From positions 1 to 64,000 of the forward strand of contig NZ_LGHT01000045.1 of NCBI RefSeq assembly GCF_001202035.1: 64,000 nucleotides of DNA, written 5' to 3'. Under the pieces are notes generated by a model. It worked only from the letters and a program-made list of their open reading frames with translations. It was not told the origin of the DNA and did no database searches. Of the stretch, positions 5,926-16,648 are shown one piece after another. The stretch's first letter is position 1. Every line of letters begins with the position of its first letter. The DNA comes from Pseudorhodobacter wandonensis (GTDB lineage: Bacteria > Pseudomonadota > Alphaproteobacteria > Rhodobacterales > Rhodobacteraceae). Both the position numbers and the translations under genes were made by a program.

Positions 5926-6205
5926 GCCTAACATCATGATCAAAATACGTTGCAGCCGGATGATATTCCAATGCCCTTGGCACTTGTCAGATGGTCTTAA
6001 GCGGTTGAAATTAAATACTTGTGCTGGCGATGCCGCGCCCCACATCGGCATCATGTGTCGTGGCGAATTTGGACTGCGAAGAACTGCCGCTAAATGCCTT
6101 AGGCATGGTTTCAATCTTCCCGAAGCTGTCGAGCGACAAGCGCAACACATCTGGGACTAGGGCTTTGGCTTGTTTGCCAAATTTATACAGCGTTTTCAAT
6201 TGTAT
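5926..6205. other. Gap between rpiR and the left end of the integrative element
   Basis: No convincing gene. A 62-codon minus-strand frame (6199-6011) has no recognisable family and starts almost at the attachment site. Before the element inserted, this DNA was directly downstream of tRNA-Ser. Confidence 0.5.
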
Positions 6206-6219
6206 TGGCGGATGGGGTG
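6206..6219. repeat. attL of the integrative element
   Basis: Exact 14-bp copy of the tRNA-Ser 3' end (TGGCGGATGGGGTG). A further GTTTTCAAT lies at 6192-6200, matching the same word just outside attR (15822-15830) with a one-base spacing difference. It lies 162 bp before the integrase. Confidence 0.85.
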
Positions 6220-6380
6220 ACTGCCATTGCTAAGGCGTATCCCGTGCCGTTCCCGTGGCAAATATTGGCTTTAAGCGCTTATTTTCATACATATTTGCAT
6301 TCTGCCCGTCCTTTCCCGTTGCATCCCGTAGCCTTCCCGTTATTCTATTTATGATGGGTAAGATAGTGGGTGAAAGCTAA

Positions 6381-7685
6381 ATGCCGAGAACTGCATCTGA
6401 ATTAGGGCCGCTAGACGTCAAAAGAATTGCTCACAATGGCGGGAAGTGGGCGAACATGGTTCCAGTAGGGGGCGTTGCTGGCCTTTACCTGCAAGTCACC
6501 CCCAATAATGGCAAGACATGGATACTGCGAATGCAGGTTGGTGACCGCCGCCGCGATATTGGCTTGGGTGGATATCCGACTGTCACGCTATCGCAAGCCC
6601 GCGACAAAGCGCGTGTAGCCCGTACCAAGGTTGAAGCTGGCATTGACCCTGTAGAAGAACGCAAGGCGACTAAAGCGGCTCTGACCGCCGCCCAGCGCCG
6701 GGGGATGCTCTTTTCTGAAGCGGTGGAAAAGGCTTTGGGTGCAAAGCTGGAAGCCTTCAAGAATGAAAAGCACCGCAAGCAATGGCGCGCCACGCTTGAC
6801 ACTTACGCAACGCCGGAACTGGGCAAAATGGCCGTGCAGGATATAACCGTGCAAGACGTGTTGCGTGTCTTGGAACCGATCTGGACAGGTAAGACAGAAA
6901 CCGCTGCGCGCCTTCGGGGCCGGATTGAGGCCGTTCTTTCTTGGGCAACTGTGTCGGGCCACCGCACGGGCGATAATCCGGCGCGCTGGGCGGGTAACCT
7001 GAAAGAGCTGTTGCCAGCGGCGGCGGCAGTCAAAAAAAGCGATAACCAACCTGCCTTGGCGCTGGGCGATGCAGCCGCATGGTTTGCCGATCTGCGCAAG
7101 CGCGACGGCTTTGGCGCGCGGGCCTTGGAACTGGCCGCATTGACCGCCGTCCGTTCCGGCGAAGTCAGGGGCGCGGTTTGGGATGAAATCGACCTAGAGG
7201 CGGAAATTTGGACTATTCCGGCCCAGCGCATGAAAATGACCCGCGAACACCGCGTTCCGCTTACGCCCGCCGCAGTGGCGATGTTGCGCGCCTTGCCACG
7301 TTTGAACGATTCTGGCTTGGTTTTTCCAGCTGCACGGGGCGGGATGCTTTCGGATATGACCCTTTCCGCCACCATGCGCCGCATGAATGAGGCCGAGAAA
7401 GAACGGGCAGGGGGTGGGGATAACGCCGGATATCTGGACGCTCGAAGCAAGCGCCCAGCCGTTCCGCATGGCCTGCGCAGCACTTTCCGAGATTGGGTGG
7501 CAGAGAAAACCCAATATCCCGGCGATATGGCCGAGGTGGCCTTGGCGCACAGTATCAATAGCGCGGTAGAGGCTGCATATCGGCGCGGCGATATGATGGA
7601 AAAGCGCCGCCGCATGATGGCCGATTGGGCTGACTTTCTGCAAGGCCGTGCACTGGGCGGCAATGTGGTGAGGATTGGCGCATGA
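6381..7685 (+). CDS. int: P4-type tyrosine recombinase (integrase)
   Basis: 434 residues. The N-terminal arm-binding domain (DUF4102-like, about residues 8-95, with GLYLQV and GLGGYPTVTLSQARDKA) is followed by a SAM-like core-binding domain (about 110-210). The catalytic domain has all expected residues: R258 (TAVRSGEVRG), H363 and R366 (HGLRSTFRDW), H390 (LAHSINSAVE) and nucleophile Y400 (AAYRRGDM). It catalyses site-specific insertion at the tRNA-Ser 3' end and, with an excisionase, excision. Its stop overlaps the next start (ATGA), so the following gene is translationally coupled. It reads inward from attL. Confidence 0.95.
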   Translation: MPRTASELGPLDVKRIAHNGGKWANMVPVGGVAGLYLQVTPNNGKTWILRMQVGDRRRDIGLGGYPTVTLSQARDKARVARTKVEAGIDPVEERKATKAALTAAQRRGMLFSEAVEKALGAKLEAFKNEKHRKQWRATLDTYATPELGKMAVQDITVQDVLRVLEPIWTGKTETAARLRGRIEAVLSWATVSGHRTGDNPARWAGNLKELLPAAAAVKKSDNQPALALGDAAAWFADLRKRDGFGARALELAALTAVRSGEVRGAVWDEIDLEAEIWTIPAQRMKMTREHRVPLTPAAVAMLRALPRLNDSGLVFPAARGGMLSDMTLSATMRRMNEAEKERAGGGDNAGYLDARSKRPAVPHGLRSTFRDWVAEKTQYPGDMAEVALAHSINSAVEAAYRRGDMMEKRRRMMADWADFLQGRALGGNVVRIGA

Positions 7686-8257
7686 GTGAGCCTCTGATGG
7701 AAAAGGCCGCATTTTTAGAGGGGTTAGAAGCCCGAAGTAAACAATTTCTGCAAAGGCTGAATGATAAAGAAGGCAACATATCCGAGGCATATATTGCACT
7801 TGACCTCATGCGGGCCATGGCGTCAGCCCACAATGGCGGCATTTCTAGCGATGAGATATTGGCTGCTTTGCCCGTCAAGGCATGGCGAGAGGATACTGTG
7901 CCAATTCCATTTGCTTTTCTTCGCACTCTGGCAATGGGCTGGGCCGAGTATCTTGGACAACAAAACGTAGAGGGCGGAAAGACACTGGGCCACTGCTTCG
8001 AATTGGAGGGGAGGTTTCAAGGAGCAAAGGGGATTGCCCGAAAGGCAAAGACACGAGACCAACTCCAGCGCCTTGCAAAATTGGTAGTTATCGAAATTCT
8101 ATTCGAAGAAAGCGCAGGCAGACACCCAAAGTTAATGGCTGCAATCAAGAAAGTTTCTGTGAGTGAAGGCAAAAGCGAAGCCACCGTCCGCAATGCTTAT
8201 CGCCGCTTTGGGCGCTCTAAAATGTCGGAGTATAGAGAGGCGGTAAAAACCTCCTAA
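7682..8257 (+). CDS. Unknown protein coupled to the integrase
   Basis: 191 residues; no family recognised. The protein is soluble and largely helical. The C-terminal third (SEGKSEATVRNAYRRFGRSKMSEYREAV) resembles a helix-turn-helix in which the second helix binds DNA. The ATG overlaps the integrase stop codon. That coupling suggests a helper of integration or excision, or a regulator of the element, but function is not established. Confidence 0.7.
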   Translation: MSEPLMEKAAFLEGLEARSKQFLQRLNDKEGNISEAYIALDLMRAMASAHNGGISSDEILAALPVKAWREDTVPIPFAFLRTLAMGWAEYLGQQNVEGGKTLGHCFELEGRFQGAKGIARKAKTRDQLQRLAKLVVIEILFEESAGRHPKLMAAIKKVSVSEGKSEATVRNAYRRFGRSKMSEYREAVKTS

Positions 8258-8347
8258 GGTTTCTACCCCCGGCTTCGCGTGACCGTCGCACCCCAATGCC
8301 GCATGTTTATCCCCATGAAGTCACGCTGACATGAGGGACGCAACACA

Positions 8348-8557
8348 ATGCCAAAGCAAATTGCAACACCGACCGACCGCCCTGCCTACGCAACCGACAC
8401 GGCGCTTGCCGCGCATTTCGGTGTAAATCGCGCGACAGTCTGGGGTTGGGTTAAGCACAATGGCTTTCCAGCCCCGGTGAAGCTTTCACCACAAATGACA
8501 CGCTGGAAATGGGCTGATGTGCAAGCGTGGGAAACCGCGCAAAGCCAAGCCGCATAA
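8348..8557 (+). CDS. AlpA/MerR-like small HTH regulator
   Basis: 69 residues. The pattern TDTALAAHFGVNRATVWGWVKHNGFPAPVKLS...RWKWADVQAWE is the winged-helix signature of AlpA or excisionase-type proteins: a helix-turn-helix, a wing with FP.P..L, then W...V..W. Such proteins activate excision or early genes of P4-like elements. It sits between the integrase unit and the replication genes, the usual place. A GAGGGACG ribosome-binding site precedes the ATG. A short CCACCC/GGGTGG hairpin (8564-8581) follows. Confidence 0.8.
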   Translation: MPKQIATPTDRPAYATDTALAAHFGVNRATVWGWVKHNGFPAPVKLSPQMTRWKWADVQAWETAQSQAA

Positions 8558-8662
8558 GAACCCCCACCCCCGGCAGGGTGGAGGCATGTTCTTTGCACGG
8601 TATCTGGATACCGAAAACATAGCACCACCTGCCTCAAACAACAATACAATGAGGCTAACACA

Positions 8663-8977
8663 ATGAAACAAACTTGGGCGCTTGCCGCATTCGACGTTCA
8701 CAAAACTACAGGCGAAACATTCCGCATCAGCGTTAAAGGCCGCGACCGTTGGGCCCTTGAAAACTTGCTACGCGCTGGGCCTAAAGGCTGCACACCGATT
8801 GACCATCCGGGGCCACGTTGGTCAGCGTATGTGCATAATATTCGGGGGCTTGGTGTTGAAATCGAGACTATCACCGAACCGCATGAGGGTGACTTCAAGG
8901 GCCATCATGCCCGGTATGTTTGCCGCTCGACTGTGACCCCGTTCCGCTTGGCAGGGCAAGAGGGGGCGGCGGCATGA
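8663..8977 (+). CDS. Small phage-type protein, winged-helix-like
   Basis: 104 residues. The middle part (DRWALENLLRAGPKGCTPIDHPGPRWSAYVHNIRGLGVEIET) has the layout of the small winged-helix proteins often found upstream of phage replication genes. In these, a recognition helix is followed by a GVEIET.xE wing. A role in DNA binding is inferred. It begins a chain of ATGA-overlapping genes leading to the primase. Confidence 0.65.
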   Translation: MKQTWALAAFDVHKTTGETFRISVKGRDRWALENLLRAGPKGCTPIDHPGPRWSAYVHNIRGLGVEIETITEPHEGDFKGHHARYVCRSTVTPFRLAGQEGAAA

Positions 8978-9192
8978 GCAACGTCCAAAAACTGCCAACG
9001 GCGGCTATCAGTTTTTACACCGTAAACAAGGCGGGCCGCAACTTCGACGTGGTCTTAGTGACGCCTTGCCCCGGCAAAGACCTGAAAACACGGTTGCGCC
9101 GTTGGTCTGACCGTGAGGCTGCGATTGCCGATGCAAAGGCGACTGCCGACACAATGAAGCGCCCATTTAAGATGCGGGGGGCGGCAGCATGA
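8974..9192 (+). CDS. Small hypothetical protein of the replication operon
   Basis: 72 residues from the ATG at 8974, which overlaps the previous stop. It contains a beta-rich N-terminal half (ISFYTVNKAGRNFDVVLV) and a basic C-terminus (KTRLRRWSDREAAIADAK). No family recognised. The strict overlaps on both sides indicate it is translated with its neighbours. Confidence 0.65.
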   Translation: MSNVQKLPTAAISFYTVNKAGRNFDVVLVTPCPGKDLKTRLRRWSDREAAIADAKATADTMKRPFKMRGAAA

Positions 9193-9290
9193 GCGCGTTA
9201 CGCCTTGCCCGCCTTCGCCGCCTGTGTGGCCTCAGCGGGCCGCTTGCGGGGATTCTGGCCCAGCTTGCCTATGGGGAGGGCCGCGAATGA
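9189..9290 (+). CDS. Very small protein of 33 residues, coupled on both sides
   Basis: The ATG at 9189 overlaps the upstream stop, and its own TGA (9288-9290) overlaps another ATG at 9287 that opens a 19-codon frame ending at 9346. The product, beginning MSALRLARLRRL, is short, basic and leucine-rich and has no known relatives that I can name. It may act mainly as a translational bridge to the primase gene. Confidence 0.4.
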   Translation: MSALRLARLRRLCGLSGPLAGILAQLAYGEGRE

Positions 9291-9338
9291 CAGTTGCCCA
9301 CCATACCCGCGCGGCGGGACTGCGAAAGGATGGGCCGT

Positions 9339-11498
9339 ATGGGTGAAGCCTTCGCAATTCGACAAGATAGCAGCTTGGCCCAAATTCCTGCGCAAGTTGC
9401 GGCAAGCTGGGCGCGCGCGGGGTTTCCCGTCTTTCCTTGCGGGTCAGACAAAAAACCCCTTACGCCCCACGGGTTCAAGGATGCGACAACCAACTTGGAC
9501 GCGGTGGCCGCATACTGGCAGGCAAACCCCAGGGCGCTTGTCGGGCTTCCCACGGGGGAAACCTCTGGCCTATTCGTGGTAGACCTCGATACCGACCGCC
9601 AAACGGGCGAAGTGGTTGGCGAAGCGTCATTGGCCGCGCTGGGCCTATCCCACCTGATCGGCGCGGTTCCCACGGTTGCCACCCCAAGCGGCGGGCGGCA
9701 CCTTTATTTCCGCGATTGCGGGTTGGGCAGCACAGCCAACAAGCTGGGGCCGAAAATCGACACGCGCGGGAATGGCGGTTATATCATCGCCCCCGGCTCT
9801 GTAACGCCAGCCGGTGCGTATGTCCTGTTGAATAGCCCTTTGACGCGGGAAAGCCTGCAAAGCGCCCCTGATGCGATTCTAGAGAGGCTGCGGGGCCATA
9901 GCGCACCACACCAACCGCTGCGGGGCCTTCAAGGGTTGGAGCAAAAGACCGATGCCGCCGAGGTTCTGGACCTCTTGGCGCATATCCCGCCCGATTGCAG
10001 TTATAGCGATTGGGTGGCGGTACTTATGGGCTTACATGACCATTTCGACGGATCCACGGCGGGCCTATCCATCGCAGACGATTGGAGCGCCAAGGGCTAC
10101 AAATACAAGCCCGGTGAAGTCTCTGCAAAGTGGCGAGGCTTTCAGTTGGGCGGCGGCGCGGGCTGGGGTAGCGTTTGCGAACTGGCACGGCAGAACGGGG
10201 CCGATTTAGGCGCTATTGCAAAGCTGCATAAGGGTAATCAGAACACGACCCGCCGCGCTATGCCAAAGCCCAGCGCTGGGCCAGCCTCTGATAACCAAAA
10301 GCAGCGCAGCGGAAATGAAGGCAAAACCCGTGCCAAGTGGTGCGCAGATATTGCTTGCACAATTCTGGAGACAAATCCCGATTGGGCCGAGGTTCTGGCC
10401 TATGACGAATTTGCGGGGCTTTACCTGCTATTGAAGCCAATCCCGGGAACAACGGTTCCCCGCTCGACCTTCACGCCGCGCCCGATTGCAGACACCGACA
10501 TAACGGCGGCGGTGCGTTGGTTTAATCGCAATGGTTTTCCAGATGCCACCAAGAACGGCGCGGCGGATGCCCTTTTCCTAGTCGCGTCCAGCACCATCAT
10601 TTCACCCGTCCGACACTTCCTAGAGGGCTTGGCTTGGGATGGCTTTCCGAGGGTGCAAAACTGGCTTTCCCAATACTGCGGGGCCGAACGTTCCGACCTG
10701 ACCGCCAAAGTCGGCACCGCTTGGCTTGTCTCTGCCGTTGCGCGGGTGTTGAAACCGGGCTGCAAGGCTGATTGCGCCCTTGTGCTAGAGGGCAAGCAGG
10801 GCGCGGGCAAGTCGTCTATCCTGCGGGCCTTGGCGGGGGATGAGTGGTTCCATGACGGCCTAAGCGATATGCACGGCAAGGACGCCAGCGCCGCCTTGCG
10901 GGGCAAGTGGATTATTGAACTGCCTGAACTGTCAGCTATGCGCCGATCTGATACCGAAGCGGTCAAAGCCTTCCTTAGCCGCACAGAGGAACGCTATCGC
11001 CCCGCCTATGGCCGCACAGAGGTTATTGAGCCGCGCCGATGCGTCTTTGCTGGCACGACCAACCGCAATGACTACCTGACAGACGACACGGGTGGGCGGC
11101 GGTTCTGGCCTGTCACTGTGGGCGCGGTGAATCTGGACGAATTGACCGCCGACCGGGAACAAATATGGGCTGAGGCAGTGGACCTATACCGCAACGGCGC
11201 GCGGTGGTGGCTCGACAAGACAGACGAAAGCGCGGCGGCGGCAGTGGTGGCAACCCGCGCGGCAGATGACCCTTGGTCGGCTGACGTGTTGCGCGTTGTG
11301 GATGGCCTAAGCGAAGTCAGCACCCGCGATGTTTTCCAGCTACTCGATATAGCCATTGATCGGCGCGGCAAAGCCGATGCCATGCGGATAACAGGCATTT
11401 TGACCCGCGCCGGATGGGCGCGCGAAGGCAAATTCACAAGCGGGCCAAATCGCGACCTATCGCGCTATGTGGCACCAAAGGGGGGCCACCATGTTTGA
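9339..11498 (+). CDS. Replication primase-helicase: Prim-Pol plus VirE-like P-loop domain
   Basis: 719 residues from the ATG at 9339, chosen because GAAAGGA at 9324-9330 lies 8 bases upstream (ATG at 9330 is the alternative). The first 170 residues are a bifunctional primase-polymerase domain with the catalytic VVDLDTD acidic motif (about 81-86) and the conserved GGRHLYF histidine (about 121). A PriCT-type domain follows (about 205-290, SYSDWVAVLMGLHDHF). The C-terminal half is the virulence-associated-E-type helicase/ATPase, with Walker A LEGKQGAGKSS (about 484-493), a Walker B region IIELPEL and the FAGTTNRNDYL sensor region. Proteins of this build start and unwind replication of satellites and islands. 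The iteron array directly downstream is its likely target. Confidence 0.9.
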   Translation: MGEAFAIRQDSSLAQIPAQVAASWARAGFPVFPCGSDKKPLTPHGFKDATTNLDAVAAYWQANPRALVGLPTGETSGLFVVDLDTDRQTGEVVGEASLAALGLSHLIGAVPTVATPSGGRHLYFRDCGLGSTANKLGPKIDTRGNGGYIIAPGSVTPAGAYVLLNSPLTRESLQSAPDAILERLRGHSAPHQPLRGLQGLEQKTDAAEVLDLLAHIPPDCSYSDWVAVLMGLHDHFDGSTAGLSIADDWSAKGYKYKPGEVSAKWRGFQLGGGAGWGSVCELARQNGADLGAIAKLHKGNQNTTRRAMPKPSAGPASDNQKQRSGNEGKTRAKWCADIACTILETNPDWAEVLAYDEFAGLYLLLKPIPGTTVPRSTFTPRPIADTDITAAVRWFNRNGFPDATKNGAADALFLVASSTIISPVRHFLEGLAWDGFPRVQNWLSQYCGAERSDLTAKVGTAWLVSAVARVLKPGCKADCALVLEGKQGAGKSSILRALAGDEWFHDGLSDMHGKDASAALRGKWIIELPELSAMRRSDTEAVKAFLSRTEERYRPAYGRTEVIEPRRCVFAGTTNRNDYLTDDTGGRRFWPVTVGAVNLDELTADREQIWAEAVDLYRNGARWWLDKTDESAAAAVVATRAADDPWSADVLRVVDGLSEVSTRDVFQLLDIAIDRRGKADAMRITGILTRAGWAREGKFTSGPNRDLSRYVAPKGGHHV

Positions 11499-11781
11499 GT
11501 GCGGAACCCCCTGCGGAACCTCTTGCGCCACCTGCCCGAAAAAACCCTGTAAAAACAGACATAGCCCGCAAATGCGGAACCTTGCGGAACCTTTTCCCAC
11601 ACATTTCACCAGAACCCTTAACTATATGAAAATAATGAGGTTATCGGGTATAAGTCGGTTCCGCAGGTTCCGCTTATTCTGGGTGTTTGCGCGCTCGGAC
11701 GAAATGTGTGGGAAAAGGTTCCGCAGGTTCCGCTCTGACCAATTTCTTACTCCCCTAAATCATGAGGAAATTACAAAATGA
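11491..11781 (+). CDS. Candidate Cys-rich protein overlapping the iteron region
   Basis: A 96-codon frame begins at an ATG that overlaps the primase stop by 8 bases and ends with a TGA overlapping the ATG of the next gene, the same coupling seen throughout this operon. The first 22 residues hold six cysteines in CGTPCGTSCATCPKKPC, a possible metal-binding knot. The rest is basic (FRRFRLFW, RFRRFRSD) because it is written over the inverted iterons. It may be a real DNA-binding protein or a chance frame across an origin. Confidence 0.4.
   Translation: MFECGTPCGTSCATCPKKPCKNRHSPQMRNLAEPFPTHFTRTLNYMKIMRLSGISRFRRFRLFWVFARSDEMCGKRFRRFRSDQFLTPLNHEEITK
11501..11733. repeat. Iteron array, probable replication origin of the element
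   Basis: The 8-mer GCGGAACC occurs four times directly (11501-11508, 11513-11520, 11574-11581, 11584-11591). It occurs four times inverted as GGTTCCGC (11657-11664, 11666-11673, 11717-11724, 11726-11733). Copies come in pairs 9-12 bp apart, about one helical turn. The segments 11574-11607 and 11701-11733 are inverse copies that differ by one base of length, and both include CCCACACATTTC. An AT-rich stretch (11608-11656) lies between the direct and inverted sets. This layout, directly after the primase-helicase gene, matches origins of satellite phages and pathogenicity islands. Confidence 0.75.
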
Positions 11782-13667
11782 CACCAGAACAGCAAGCCGC
11801 CGTAGCGGAAGCAAAAAAGCGCCGCGCAATTGCAGAAGGGCAGCAAATACGCCCTACAAACGGAGGTTCAAACCCTGCCGATTTTATTGAATTTGATATG
11901 CCAGACGGGCGCAAGGCGCGTTTACCCAAAGGCATGTCACGCGCGGAAATGGCAGCGGCACTAAATAGGTTTCCTTCTGCGCAACCAGCCCAGCAGCAAG
12001 AACAGCCCGTTTTTGAGGTTCAGGGACCGGATGGGCAAATTTATGAGGTGCAAGCGCCGGACATAGAGAGCGCCGCGCGCGCTACTCAATCATTCACCCC
12101 GGAACAGTTTGCGGCTATCGCAGCCGCCAGAAAACTGCGCACTGATACAGAGGTGCAAGGTAAGCCTTCGACATATGCCGAAATGATTGCCAAGAGCCGC
12201 GAACTTGCGGCGGCTGGTGACATGGAAAGCGCCAAGCGTGTTGCACAAATTGCGATTGCCCGCCGTGATGGTGTGGCGCAACCATCTGCCGCCCCGCAAA
12301 CCAACCTTTTCGAGCAATCAACAAGCGGAATAAACGAGGGCATTGCAGGGATGCTTGGCGCCCCGGTTGACCTGATGGCGGGCGCGCTAAATATGGGGGC
12401 CAAGGGCATTAACGCGGTAGCAGGGACAAACCTGCCCAGCATTGAAAACCCCGTTGGTGGTAGCGGCACGTTCCGAGACTTGCTTTCGCCCACCATTTCC
12501 GAAGTCGCACCACAAACAACTGCCCAGCGCTACGGGCGGCGGATTGGGCAGGAAGTTGGCGCGGCGGCTGTTCCCGGTGGTGTAATGATGCGCGGCGCAG
12601 CGGCACCGATTGCTTTAGCCGGAACAGAAGTTGCAAGCGCCTTGGGCGCTGGGCTTGCGGGCCAGACCTCGCAAGAGATTGCCCCCGGCAATGCAACCGC
12701 CGACATGATAGCGTCTATGATTGGCGGCATTGGCCCAGTCGTGGCAAGGCGGGCACTGAGACCCGGCCCACAGGCCCCCACGCTGGACAATCTCAAACAG
12801 CAGCAAGCGGCGGCTTATACCGATGTAGACGCGTCACAGGCACGGCTCGACCCCACGCAACGGCAAGGGCTTATTGACCACATGCGCGGGCGCACCGATG
12901 CAATGGATATGGACGAATTTTTGCACCCCCGCGCAAATCGCACCATGAGCCGGATGGATAGCCTAGAACCATCGCCACGCATTGCTGATGTAGAGCAAAA
13001 ACGCCGCCTTGTCGGGCGTGATGTTGCTGGCTCGCTCGACCCGTCCGAGGCCATGATAGGCCAAGGCATGAAAGACGAAATCGACGCCTATCTTAGAGGG
13101 CTTGCCGATAATGGGGGGCTTGGGCCGGATGCCAGCGCAACGCTTGGGCGGCTGCAAGATGGGCGCGAAATGACACAGCGGATAAAGAAGGCCGAGGCCG
13201 TCACAGGCGCTGTCACGAAGGCCGAGCGCCGCGCCGCATCATCTGGCACGGGTGGCAATGAGGTAAACACGACACGGCAGAACATTCGCGCGATGCTCGA
13301 CAATCCAAAGCAAAGCCGAGGCTTTAGCGCTGCGGAACGGGAACAGATGGAATCTATTGTCAGGGGAACGCCTGCGCAGAACGCCTTGCGCCTAGCCGGA
13401 CGGTTCTCCCCTACCTCTGGGGCGTTGTCCGCGATGGGCGGGCTTGCCAGTGGCGCATCATTCGGGCCGCTTGGCGTGTTGCCTTCTGTCATTGGCTACG
13501 GAGCTAAAGCCGGGGCCGAGGCTTTGACAAAGCGGCAGATTGATAAGCTGATGCAAACCATTCGGAACGGTGGGCCGTTGGCTGCAAAGGCTTTCAATAG
13601 CACCGATAAGCGCGCTGCAATCGCGGCTTTGCTTGCCAGCGGTGCAAGCGCCCCAGAACCAAATTGA
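11778..13667 (+). CDS. Large virion-like protein of unknown function
   Basis: 629 residues with its own AGGAAA ribosome-binding site. The N-terminus (about 1-125) has two copies of a pattern like F(D/E)..MPDGRKARLPKGMS..EMAAAL and VFEVQGPDGQIYEVQAPD. These are small beta modules followed by a helix, often seen in phage proteins carried inside capsids. Residues 175-330 form a Gly/Ala-rich amphipathic or membrane-active stretch (GINEGIAGMLGAPVDLMAGALN ... APIALAGTEVASALGAGLAGQ). The rest is helical, and the C-terminus is again Gly/Ala-rich. No lytic motif is seen. I infer an ejection or internal virion protein, the only structural-type gene on the element; this is tentative. Confidence 0.6.
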   Translation: MTPEQQAAVAEAKKRRAIAEGQQIRPTNGGSNPADFIEFDMPDGRKARLPKGMSRAEMAAALNRFPSAQPAQQQEQPVFEVQGPDGQIYEVQAPDIESAARATQSFTPEQFAAIAAARKLRTDTEVQGKPSTYAEMIAKSRELAAAGDMESAKRVAQIAIARRDGVAQPSAAPQTNLFEQSTSGINEGIAGMLGAPVDLMAGALNMGAKGINAVAGTNLPSIENPVGGSGTFRDLLSPTISEVAPQTTAQRYGRRIGQEVGAAAVPGGVMMRGAAAPIALAGTEVASALGAGLAGQTSQEIAPGNATADMIASMIGGIGPVVARRALRPGPQAPTLDNLKQQQAAAYTDVDASQARLDPTQRQGLIDHMRGRTDAMDMDEFLHPRANRTMSRMDSLEPSPRIADVEQKRRLVGRDVAGSLDPSEAMIGQGMKDEIDAYLRGLADNGGLGPDASATLGRLQDGREMTQRIKKAEAVTGAVTKAERRAASSGTGGNEVNTTRQNIRAMLDNPKQSRGFSAAEREQMESIVRGTPAQNALRLAGRFSPTSGALSAMGGLASGASFGPLGVLPSVIGYGAKAGAEALTKRQIDKLMQTIRNGGPLAAKAFNSTDKRAAIAALLASGASAPEPN

Positions 13668-13670
13668 AGT

Positions 13671-13699
13671 GGCAGGGGGGTAAATTCACGCCCCCCGCC
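13671..13699 (+). terminator. GC-rich hairpin after the large protein gene
   Basis: GGCAGGGGGG (13671-13680) can pair with CCCCCCGCC (13691-13699) across a 10-base loop with one bulged A, directly after the stop codon. No T-run follows, so termination may be weak or Rho-assisted. Confidence 0.45.
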
Positions 13700-13763
13700 T
13701 ATTCCAACGCCTTAGCCCGCCTGTGGCCCCCAAAATACGGTCAATAGAACGAGAGAGAAACCC

Positions 13764-14036
13764 ATGCCAGAACCCGACCCACACGGCATTGAGCCGGGCA
13801 GCAATGGGCCTTTGTCCCTGTCAGTGTCCTTTTTCCTTTGCCAGAATAAAAAACACCGCCTTGCCCGTGCAAAGCGCATCCTGCGCAACATGCATTGGGG
13901 TGATTGGTGTTGCCCGCAATGTGGGGGCTACGTGCCTCTATTTCGCCGTGCAGATGCGGTTTATTGCCGTGAATCTTGCCGCAAGAAAGCCGCGCGGCAG
14001 CGGCGACGAGAGCCTAATAATTATGATGCCATTTAA
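13764..14036 (+). CDS. Small zinc-ribbon protein
   Basis: 90 residues. The C-terminal half has CCPQCGGYVPLF...YCRESCRKKAARQRRR, that is, CxxC followed 18 residues later by CxxxC and a strongly basic tail. This suits a zinc-binding, nucleic-acid-interacting protein of phage origin. It follows the hairpin after the large gene and has a GAGAGAAA ribosome-binding site. It converges on the secreted-protein gene with only one base between stops. Function unknown. Confidence 0.6.
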   Translation: MPEPDPHGIEPGSNGPLSLSVSFFLCQNKKHRLARAKRILRNMHWGDWCCPQCGGYVPLFRRADAVYCRESCRKKAARQRRREPNNYDAI

Positions 14037-14037
14037 C

Positions 14038-14550
14038 CTAGTCTTTTGCCACCGAATACCCTTTCCCGAGCAAAGGACTTGAAACCGTCACTTTCCAGTC
14101 TGCTGTGGCAGTGGAGCAAGTCAGAAGGAACATTCGATCAAGGTCTTTGAAAAGGGTTTCGGGTTCATTCTTATTGTAGTAGCCTTCATGCTTAAACAAC
14201 CTTGCAGCTCTCGAAATTTCTGCAAATAGCGGTTCCCCTGTCTCAAGATTGAGGCCAAACAGACGCTTCACGTTAGTAATCCATGTTGCGCATTCTGTTT
14301 CAGCTTCGTCTTTGGTTGGAAAAATTTTCAGAACGATGCCGAGTGGCGCGCTAATATCAATACGATTTGAATCCCAGTCATATTCTGCGTAACCGCCGGG
14401 GTCGTTTTGAAGCGCCAAGTCTAGCCGCAATACTCCTAAATCCATCATCGATACTGGTGTGTTAGTAAGGTAACTCGCCGATGCGTCAGGGCCTGCCAAA
14501 GCAGGGGCAAACTGAATTCCAAGTGAAGCGGCTAATGCAAGAAATCTCAT
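14038..14550 (-). CDS. Secreted protein coupled to the Xre repressor
   Basis: 170 residues with a signal peptide (MRFLALAASLGIQFAPALA, cleavage near ALA-GP), so it is exported to the periplasm or beyond. The mature part has no family I recognise. Its ATG overlaps the stop of the Xre gene (ATGA), so it is expressed together with the probable repressor while the element is integrated. Genes in this position in prophages often alter the host surface or exclude other phages; that is inference only. Confidence 0.7.
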   Translation of the reverse strand: MRFLALAASLGIQFAPALAGPDASASYLTNTPVSMMDLGVLRLDLALQNDPGGYAEYDWDSNRIDISAPLGIVLKIFPTKDEAETECATWITNVKRLFGLNLETGEPLFAEISRAARLFKHEGYYNKNEPETLFKDLDRMFLLTCSTATADWKVTVSSPLLGKGYSVAKD

Positions 14551-14792
14551 TCTTTCGTACCTCTAAACGCGACCCCAGCACCTGCCGCAACTTGCCCAGC
14601 TTCCAAGAATTGGACGCCCTGCGCTTCAAGGGCCGCTTTAACGCGCGATACAGTTTCCGCCCCGACAAGCCCTGTATGGTCCGGCCTTCCTTCAATGCGG
14701 CGTAGTGTGATGAGGGGAACTTGCGCAATTTCGCACAATTCTTGCTGCGTCATGGCTAATAGATCACGAGCAGCTTTAATCTGAACCTTCAT
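14547..14792 (-). CDS. Xre-family HTH regulator, probable repressor of the element
   Basis: 81 residues. The helix-turn-helix KAARDLLAMTQQELCEIAQVPLITLRRIEG is followed by the short wing AALEAQGVQFLE common in small alphaproteobacterial Xre proteins. It is divergent from the 14888 gene across a 95-bp gap carrying repeated TATCAGTA sites, the classic layout of a lysogeny switch. It probably represses both promoters. Function is inferred from family and layout. Confidence 0.85.
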   Translation of the reverse strand: MKVQIKAARDLLAMTQQELCEIAQVPLITLRRIEGRPDHTGLVGAETVSRVKAALEAQGVQFLEAGQVAAGAGVAFRGTKE

Positions 14793-14832
14793 GGCGAATC
14801 CTTCTGATAACTTTCAATCACTGTGCACTTGC

Positions 14833-14867
14833 TATCAGTAAAGTCTACTGATATAAAGCTATCAGTA
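14833..14867. promoter_or_regulatory. Repeated operator sites between the Xre gene and the 14888 operon
   Basis: TATCAGTA (14833-14840) and its inverse TACTGATA (14846-14853) form a perfect palindrome with a 5-base spacer. A further TATCAGTA lies at 14860-14867 and a partial CTGATA at 14804-14809. Several equal half-sites in a divergent promoter fit cooperative binding by the Xre repressor. Confidence 0.7.
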
Positions 14868-14887
14868 AGCAGCGCAAGGAGGCCGCA

Positions 14888-15166
14888 ATGTTCAACAAAT
14901 CGGAAATCATGAAAGCCGCTTGGGTTCAGTTTCGCAGCATTGACGTGACCAAACTGTCAAAGCGTGTTCGGGCCATCCGCTTCGCTTCATGCCTGCGCAT
15001 GGCGTGGGCCGCTGCAAAGCGCATTATCCGCGCCGCAATCATCCCGACCCCCGCCGAATGCCTTGATGCCCAGATTGCAGCGCTGGAAAATACCGACCGT
15101 TTGGGCGTTGCTGGCATTGCCCGCCTTTCGACCCTGCGCACCCAAGCCGCCCATATGGCCGCTTAA
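14888..15166 (+). CDS. Small hypothetical protein, first gene under the operator
   Basis: 92 residues with a strong AAGGAGG ribosome-binding site. The first half is basic and helical (RSIDVTKLSKRVRAIRFASCLRMAWAAAKRIIRAA). The C-terminal half is a predicted helical hairpin. No family recognised. Its place opposite the repressor suggests an early gene switched on by derepression, as for an antirepressor or excision factor. Confidence 0.65.
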   Translation: MFNKSEIMKAAWVQFRSIDVTKLSKRVRAIRFASCLRMAWAAAKRIIRAAIIPTPAECLDAQIAALENTDRLGVAGIARLSTLRTQAAHMAA

Positions 15167-15198
15167 ACACTTCAATCAATCCAAGAGAGGATAGGACC

Positions 15199-15411
15199 AT
15201 GACCACCGAAAACGCGACAACGCCGAAAACCATTTCAGACCTGCAAACGGATGCAACATTCCTTCACGCAATGGCCCAAGGCATCGACGTGCTTTACGAC
15301 ATAATCAAAACCGACCTTTCCCCCGCAAGCAATTCCATGCCTGCAATGCTTCAAAGCCTAATCGAACGGGCCGACCGCTTGGCGCAAGACTTGGACCGGG
15401 TGAAGCCATGA
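15199..15411 (+). CDS. Small hypothetical helical protein
   Basis: 70 residues, acidic, with a helix-loop-helix look (ISDLQTDATFLHAMAQGIDVLYDIIKT ... LQSLIERADRLAQDLD). No family recognised. An AAGAGAGGA ribosome-binding site precedes it, and its stop overlaps the start of the next gene by four bases. Confidence 0.6.
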   Translation: MTTENATTPKTISDLQTDATFLHAMAQGIDVLYDIIKTDLSPASNSMPAMLQSLIERADRLAQDLDRVKP

Positions 15412-15614
15412 CCAAAGCAAAAACCACAATCGACAAAGCCTATGACCTTATGAGCCTGCTCAAGGTTCTATCGCTGGCAGTTGATGGCGAAGACGTGGCG
15501 GCGGCAACGCTGGGCCATGTTGGAGGTGGGCGTGTTCTGGATATGGCGGCGGAATTGGCTTTTGACATTCTGGGCGATTTGGAACGGGCAGAAACGGCGG
15601 CTGTGAAACTTTGA
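15408..15614 (+). CDS. Small hypothetical helical protein, last gene of the element
   Basis: 68 residues, helical (KAYDLMSLLKVLSLAVDGED ... AAELAFDILGDLERAE), resembling its upstream neighbour in size and make-up, so the two may act as a pair. It starts within the previous stop codon (ATGA) and is followed by a terminator. Function unknown. Confidence 0.6.
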   Translation: MTKAKTTIDKAYDLMSLLKVLSLAVDGEDVAAATLGHVGGGRVLDMAAELAFDILGDLERAETAAVKL

Positions 15615-15647
15615 TGCAATGCAGCTTTGCGTTGCCAGACTAAAGGA

Positions 15648-15675
15648 AGGCCCTGCTAACTGCGGGGCCTTTTTG
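15648..15675 (+). terminator. Rho-independent terminator at the right end of the element
   Basis: AGGCCCTGC (15648-15656) pairs with GCGGGGCCT (15662-15670) around a TAACT loop, with one G-T pair, followed by a run of T. It ends the right-hand operon before the tRNA. Confidence 0.85.
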
Positions 15676-15836
15676 TAACCAGACAGCTTGATAAACGATT
15701 GCGGGGCTTAGACTTGTCGGAATTTGAGGCACGAGTCGGGCGAAGTGAAGCACTTCCCAAGCGTTTTTTCTTTGTGGGGTTTAATGATGGGTGTGGCGAG
15801 TGAATGTTGAAAATATCTAATGTTTTCAATGGTGTC

Positions 15837-15850
15837 TGGCGGATGGGGTG
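15837..15850. repeat. attR of the integrative element
   Basis: TGGCGGATGGGGTG, identical to 6206-6219, here forming the last 14 bases of the tRNA-Ser gene (minus strand). Confidence 0.85.
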
Positions 15851-15926
15851 GGATTCGAACCCACGGTACGGTTCCCCGCACGCTAGTTTTCAAGACTAGA
15901 GCCTTAAACCGCTCGGCCACCCATCC
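15837..15926 (-). tRNA. tRNA-Ser (anticodon UGA), with encoded CCA
   Basis: Read on the minus strand, the 90-base gene starts GGATGGGTGGCCGAGCGG and ends in CATCCGCCA. The 7-base anticodon loop CTTGAAA gives UGA, a long variable arm (GCGTGCGGGGAACCGTAC) marks a class-II serine tRNA, and GGTTCGAATCC is the T-loop. It is intact although the element is inserted at its 3' end. Confidence 0.95.
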
Positions 15927-16126
15927 TAGCTGCCGCTCTGATACCACGGCCAGTCGGGATTTCAAGCCCGAGTCGCAGCATTCTTGCATCCCATTCAACG
16001 AATATTGGTTTTGTTTCACGATTGGTTAGGATGGATTGGCTAGGCTTGGCATATGCCGGTCACCGAATCTCCCGACCGACTATTTGAAGTTTGGCAATGG
16101 CAGTTATTTGATGCGAAGGTTTGCGG

Positions 16127-16648
16127 ATGAAAAGTGATGTTCTTGGCGTAGCTCGCGTCTTGCATGTGGTGCAAGGTCAGGTTGCGGTGTCGGCCGATCC
16201 CAATGTTACCTTTACGACAATTTTGGGCGCCTGCGTCGCTGTTTGCCTTTTTGATCCCGAAAAAAGGCTTGGGGGGGTGGCGCATTTTCTGTTTCCTGAC
16301 GGCGAAATGCATGCCCCACATGAACAGCGGTTTTGCAATCAAGCGATCTCGGATTTAATGGCGCGCGTTGAAGAAATGGGCGGAAATTTGAACCGACTAC
16401 AAGCCAGCTTGTTCGGCGGCGCCAAGAGCCATGATGGCCGTCGAAATATCGGTAAGCGAAATGCGGATTCGGCTCTTAGATTCCTTGTCTCACATGATTT
16501 GGCGGTCGTGAAACGGGCGTTGGGTGGTGAACAGGTACGGCGTATCCGGTTTTCGCCAACGACCGGGTATTGTACCGAACGCTCAATGAACGATGGCTGG
16601 CCACATGATACATTTGGTGCTTATAAAGAAGGAGAACATTATCTTTGA
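16127..16648 (+). CDS. cheD: CheD-family chemoreceptor glutamine deamidase
   Basis: 173 residues. The ATG at 16127 has GAAGG about 7 bases upstream. CheD removes amide groups from glutamines of chemoreceptors using a Cys-His-Thr triad. The family core TTILGACVAVCLFDPEKRLGGVAHFLFPDG shows the nucleophile Cys and the active His. The later KSHDGRRNIGKRNADSALRFL matches the usual IGxRNxxFA region. No other chemotaxis gene is nearby, so it is an orphan copy between tRNA-Ser and cobF. It is separated from cobF by only six bases and convergent with it. Confidence 0.85.
   Translation: MKSDVLGVARVLHVVQGQVAVSADPNVTFTTILGACVAVCLFDPEKRLGGVAHFLFPDGEMHAPHEQRFCNQAISDLMARVEEMGGNLNRLQASLFGGAKSHDGRRNIGKRNADSALRFLVSHDLAVVKRALGGEQVRRIRFSPTTGYCTERSMNDGWPHDTFGAYKEGEHYL

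Follow-up and report, generated by a model that had tools for sequence, protein, structure and literature searches.

Positions 11501-11733 of the window, by which we mean the whole 64-kb stretch of DNA analyzed here, very probably form the replication origin of an integrated element of about 9.6 kb (Table 1). Its position, geometry, conservation, and homology all point to origin function, and recognition by the neighboring primase-helicase is the best explanation for the site and is well supported by these comparisons. The site contains eight copies of the word GCGGAACC, four direct (plus strand, starting at 11501, 11513, 11574, and 11584) and four inverted (minus strand, 11657, 11666, 11717, and 11726), as the original prediction had claimed. 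It had also been placed directly after the primase-helicase gene; the stop codon of that gene ends at 11498, and 2 bases separate it from the first copy. The copies are arranged as four pairs (A, B, C, and D) with spacings of 12, 10, 9, and 9 bp, respectively; a single helical turn had been proposed. The AT-rich core proposed to lie between the pairs was confirmed. The inner gap (11592-11656) has a GC content of 35%, compared with 61% for the primase gene and 57% for the element, and the lowest-GC 50-bp stretch of the core, which starts at 11603, has a GC content of 32%.

Inverted arms of 33 to 34 bp that match apart from one base were likewise present as described. The arms span 11574-11607 (34 nt) and 11701-11733 (33 nt), the difference between them is one inserted base, and the longest perfect uninterrupted match is 25 nt. 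They are made up of GCGGAACC words and the 16-nt box TTTTCCCACACATTTC. The long arms couple the inner-left pair B with the outer-right pair D, and the pair at 11657/11666 lies inside the palindrome; the pairs therefore do not mirror each other simply, two by two.

Table 1. Features of the integrated element and its iteron array (positions in the window)
Feature	Position	Strand	Remarks
Attachment-site repeat TGGCGGATGGGGTG, integrase side	6206..6219		Exact 14-bp copy of 15837-15850
Tyrosine integrase	6381..7685	+	Pfam Arm-DNA-bind_3, Phage_int_M, Phage_integrase
Small winged-helix protein, PF22324 HTH_91	8663..8977	+	E 4.8e-37
Initiator, 734 aa	9294..11498	+	Prim-Pol 38-193, PriCT_2 225-298, VapE-like helicase 443-650, C-terminal winged helix ~662-726
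Iteron pair A, outer left	11501..11520	+	12 bp apart
Iteron pair B, inner left	11574..11591	+	10 bp apart
Box TTTTCCCACACATTTC, 16 nt, inward, adjoining pair B	11592..11607	+	
AT-rich core, 65-bp inner gap	11592..11656		35% GC; proposed to melt
Iteron pair C, inner right	11657..11673	-	9 bp apart
Box TTTTCCCACACATTTC, inverted copy, adjoining pair D	11701..11716	-	
Iteron pair D, outer right	11717..11733	-	9 bp apart
629-aa cargo protein, related to Sulfitobacter podovirus virion protein	11778..13667	+	PHROG 21712 E 2.6e-113
Small HTH protein, possible repressor	14547..14792	-	HTH_3 below Pfam cut-off
tRNA-Ser(TGA), integration target; 3' end is second attachment repeat (15837-15850)	15837..15926	-	

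The window contains 10 copies of GCGGAACC, compared with 3.4 expected from shuffles, and 8 of the 10 are inside the array. A genome-wide count of the 8-mer, proposed in the original prediction, gave 136 copies in 3,887,441 bp, from which 0.008 copies would be expected in 233 bp. The word is concentrated only at the array: same-strand pairs separated by a gap of 1 to 4 bp occur four times in the whole genome, and all four are in 11501-11733. The array score was 8.6, whereas the best score among 1,000 dinucleotide shuffles of the 650-bp region was 3.4. When the 233-bp array itself was shuffled 1,000 times (a weaker control), the commonest 8-mer reached at most 6 copies, overlaps counted, against the 8 observed. 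A scan of the 64-kb window revealed no second array at a score of 4.5 or above.

The boundaries of the element were defined by an exact 14-bp repeat, TGGCGGATGGGGTG, one copy of which lies at 6206-6219 and the other in tRNA-Ser(TGA), at its 3' end; together with the integrase gene, which begins some 160 bp inward of the first copy, these paired repeats delimit an integrated element of about 9.6 kb. The integrase is 72% identical (residues 1 to 423) to the one encoded beside the closest related primase (locus L002/L043). The HTH_91 protein is encoded between the integrase and the replication module, and a weak HTH_3 match lies at the other end. Over 70% of its length, the 629-aa protein is 59% identical to a product of Sulfitobacter phage NYA-2014a annotated "major head protein"; this homologue adjoins endolysin and virion structural genes and may have another virion role. 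A lone virion-type gene on a 9.6-kb element hints at a phage satellite. We also noted a 92-aa protein (14888-15166) with a subthreshold match to NCBIfam AcrIIA3 (33 bits; cut-off, 70). No excisionase-named family was matched by the element's proteins in Pfam and PHROG searches, the tRNA was the sole Rfam match at gathering thresholds across 6000-16200, and PADLOC returned weak matches to the small HTH protein and nothing else. Among nine genomes of the genus, own genome included, the tRNA-Ser end was matched in all nine (at 88% identity or more over at least 90 bases in seven) and the other flank of the element in two; no empty attachment site was demonstrated among them.

The initiator is homologous in sequence and fold to PriRep1, the structure of which has been solved with double-stranded DNA. 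AF2 gave a usable model of a 395-residue part of the initiator with 46 aligned sequences; a single-sequence run on the whole protein gave a useless one (pLDDT, 36.6). The window protein is thus a homologous primase-helicase initiator of the phage-inducible chromosomal island (PICI) type, with a predicted C-terminal winged helix for which a DNA-binding role is predicted.

In order to determine whether the array is kept in related elements, the DNA behind homologous VapE genes was compared. An initiator match at an E value of 1e-30 or lower was found in 56 of 394 genomes of the family. A MAG contig from Marinibacterium falls in the same family, and the host therefore is probably one of the Rhodobacterales. 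In the closest relative, L002/L043, the initiator is 66% identical over residues 342 to 730, and its array retains both inner pairs and the word GCGGAACC, which in some copies carries one mismatch; the eight remaining proteins of the window that were tested had no match at this locus. An array was present behind the gene in 19 of the first 36 scorable loci, a count that includes near-identical and duplicate loci. Other relatives retain the geometry, mostly steps of 9 bp and a core low in GC, but use different words, which include TGCACCAC, GTCACCAA, GGTCCGGG, TGTCCCAC, and TGACTACC. VapE genes with an array also were found on all four plasmids chosen (pGO128, pKNA06, p1318-5, and pLAO97), and all three phages chosen (LPPA36, PS3, and Jess A) had an array; these seven loci were hand-picked among the 50 matches listed of 1,433 matching records (312 plasmids and 1,121 phages). 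One of them, pGO128 (L032), is a 4.3-kb Gluconobacter plasmid with five annotated genes, none of which except the VapE gene is obviously a replication gene; a mirrored array lies right behind that gene. A 4.9-kb contig (L057) lacked an exact terminal overlap, and hence a circular plasmid was not supported there.

We then scored a wider set at a threshold of 4.5, within 640 bp 3' of the gene. Arrays were found in 33 of 65 protein clusters, compared with 1 of 356 control windows located upstream or within the gene and 8 of 255 located further downstream. The 65 clusters comprise 78 loci and are a nonrandom sample that held loci already known to be positive. They consist of 40 cluster representatives drawn from 80 loci on viral contigs plus 11 at the class level (of 43 clusters, 3 were dropped because the gene was cut off or had fewer than 650 bases behind it), 19 longer regions, 7 of which (L043 to L046 and L048 to L050) cover loci already seen, the 7 picked plasmid and phage loci, and 12 loci taken from the first 30, among which 9 were known positives. 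The 80 viral-contig loci were kept from at least 590 obtained by an alignment search; a search of viral contigs with the protein alone gave no relative. Near-identical prophage loci (L009 to L011, L013, L015, L018, L021, and L023), cut-off genes (L019 and L025), and pieces without the helicase part (L027 and L029) were left out. Since the sample was nonrandom, the count was repeated on loci unseen before the scan, and an array was found in 31 of 59, compared with 1 of 329 control windows. These positives comprised 18 of 40 viral and class representatives, 6 of 12 regions, and all 7 plasmids and phages. Representatives were chosen by the length of downstream DNA, and clusters can therefore hide negative or positive members; the L050 cluster, for example, appears to contain L048, which has no array. 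Counting all members of the viral and class loci gave an array in 42 of 87, and the unclustered count was 70 of 138 loci with an array within 700 bp.

About half of the related loci thus have no adjacent array by the detector. In some, arrays begin further off (+1213 in L049, +1156 in L061, and +663 in L062), and in one near-identical prophage group (L009 and kin; L048) no array was found behind the gene within the stretches scanned. The detector also scored no array in L005/L046, L007, or L045/L004. By eye, palindromic TGCGCA words that the detector missed are seen behind the VapE gene in L005/L046 and L007, and TGTGGAA words are visible in L045. The original prediction had named related elements that keep the primase and lose the repeats as evidence against an origin; this pattern was seen in part of the relatives, including the prophage group, and elsewhere arrays occur far above background. 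On these comparative grounds, the concentration of the word and the mirrored arrays at the same place in relatives support the claim that the segment is an initiator-bound replication origin.

The geometry of 32 arrays was compared. A step of 9 bp accounts for 60 of the 102 steps inside clusters; the detector demands pairs at 8 to 12 bp, and therefore the mode is informative and the range is not. The distances between the inner cluster and the outer copies, which the detector leaves free in phase, concentrate near 45, 55, 66, and 75 bp, with a phase of about 10.5 bp (66 distances; Rayleigh R, 0.46; p ~8e-7, the distances within one array not being independent). Core GC was lower than gene GC in all 32 arrays (mean, 0.47 versus 0.62).

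A TTTTCCCACAC-type box lies inward of the iterons in the window (11592-11607 and 11701-11716) and in L043, L044, and L045, elements that differ in their iteron words; the boxes resembling TTTTCCCACACATTTC in these three relatives were recognized by eye. The box was found only in the window's subgroup, and inward of the words there was no 6- or 7-mer common to more than 6 of the 32 arrays. The box may mark where primers start or where a host factor binds, and it resembles a DnaA box with two mismatches.

The relationship between the word and the C-terminal domain was assessed next. L051 and L052, which reside in the same genome, have helicases that are 93% identical and C-terminal 70-aa segments that are 46% identical; their words match at 6 of 14 positions (background, 6.7 to 6.8), and their array layouts are nearly the same. 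This looks like a natural domain swap, and the contrast points to the C-terminal winged helix as the probable reader of the word. Across 388 nonindependent pairs, word similarity correlated with C-terminal identity (Spearman 0.67) and almost as well with helicase identity (0.58), and the link between word and domain is therefore partly common descent. L057 and L028 have a common word despite a C-terminal identity of 19% in a crude 70-residue comparison.

The original prediction further suggested a new origin type, and this was not borne out. In staphylococcal pathogenicity islands (SaPIs) and PICIs, two iteron sets flank an AT-rich stretch directly 3' of the primase/initiator-helicase gene, and Rep reads the iterons through its C-terminal domain (PMC6092414, PMC7581432). 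The PICI paper considers this organization common to no other known bacterial replicon. The pri-rep-ori regions of SaPIbov1, SaPI5, and EcCICFT073 have the same plan as the window array, and the initiator PriRep1 is homologous. The window has an array directly 3' of the initiator gene, two word sets around an AT-rich gap, and, as in PICIs, a small integrated island with an integrase and a specific attachment site, here at the 3' end of tRNA-Ser. The element differs from these islands in being alphaproteobacterial and inserted at tRNA-Ser and in encoding one virion-type protein and an initiator that fuses Prim-Pol, PriCT_2, and VapE; related arrays also occur on plasmid and phage records.

The crr site of P4 also is close: it follows the alpha gene at a distance of about 45 bp and has 8-bp type 1 repeats in both orientations, in pairs 9 bp apart. 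P4 differs in that a pair of 120-bp direct repeats makes up crr, about 4.5 kb from the annotated ori. The detector recovered crr with a shifted word and missed ori1, a limit that applies equally to our search for a second iteron site, in which no other array was found in the window and no other tandem GCGGAACC pair in the genome. The RepA replicon of phage-inducible chromosomal island-like elements (PLEs) (PMC8263062) is a satellite iteron replicon like that of the window, but its initiator is of the RepA_N type without primase or helicase, and its iterons are about 30 bp. Within the literature searched, which was of limited coverage, we found no paper joining VapE with iterons. What is new is possibly the spread of the plan to VapE plasmids and phages and the swapping of words on a fixed lattice.

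Three other explanations of the array were weighed against an initiator-bound origin. It is highly improbable that the repeats are operators through which a regulator, such as the HTH_91 or the small HTH protein, acts on the primase or on the virion-type gene downstream. The element does encode small HTH proteins and the array does occupy the gap before the 629-aa gene, but arrays stay behind the VapE gene though the next gene varies, including on plasmids and phages with other neighbors. Moreover, the virion-type gene and the small HTH proteins were unmatched in the 14 to 15 kb around the L043 and L044 primases (tblastn, E 1e-4, a search in which short proteins are easily missed). An origin at which the initiator recognizes a structure extruded by the long inverted arms is just as improbable. 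Such a mechanism has been proposed for pRN1, where an essential stem-loop site lies just 3' of orf904, a Prim-Pol/helicase/winged-helix gene (PMC4234260). The window has both the position behind a Prim-Pol/helicase gene and 25-nt perfect arms. However, the orf904 site is described there as a structure without conserved sequence (PMC4234260), whereas here tandem words recur and define every array, the latter by the detector's construction. A stem with kept pairing was not found over the 32 arrays: non-iteron inward flanks matched at a mean of 10.9 compared with 9.8 of up to 28 positions (p 0.045), and clear cases are few (e.g., L044 and L068). With flank matching only slightly above chance, the recurring feature is the mirrored words and not a stem, and the complementarity of the arms looks to be mostly a by-product of those words.

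It also is unlikely that the array is a remnant, either the former origin of a now-immobile element or a set of sites for copy control only. Evidence of excision was not obtained, and the sister genomes yielded no empty site, which would suit this explanation; against it, all eight words are exact, the reading frames of the 734-aa initiator and of the integrase are open, and the attachment repeats are paired.

If 11501-11733 is the origin, replication would follow excision of the element, and the C-terminal winged helix of the primase-helicase would bind the GCGGAACC words on both sides. Hexamers would assemble at the two word sets, facing each other, and the GC-poor core between them would melt. 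The helicase rings could then load onto the single strands, and the Prim-Pol domain would lay primers. The iteron word would serve as the specificity tag of the replicon and would tend to change with the C-terminal domain, and arrays would keep their spacing lattice and their place behind the gene as the word changes.

The window provides a clean example, from the alphaproteobacteria, of a primase-helicase origin, and the plan called unique to PICIs in the PICI paper now extends to VapE plasmids and phages. We give about an even chance to a broader proposal, that VapE-family initiators use one origin grammar in integrated elements, plasmids, and phages. Mirrored words with 9-bp steps and a phase of about 10.5 bp would surround a GC-poor core, usually 3' of the gene; the word would be swapped together with the C-terminal winged helix, and lineages would hop between mutually blind specificities. 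In PLEs, the origin and the DNA-binding domain swap as a module, and escape from an origin-directed phage nuclease is the proposed driver (PMC8263062). The paired words and C-terminal domains assembled here are a ready set for working out DNA recognition by this winged helix and the reasons for which satellites and phages change their origin words. If the proposal is true, origin specificity would be readable from sequence throughout a very large family of primase-helicases.
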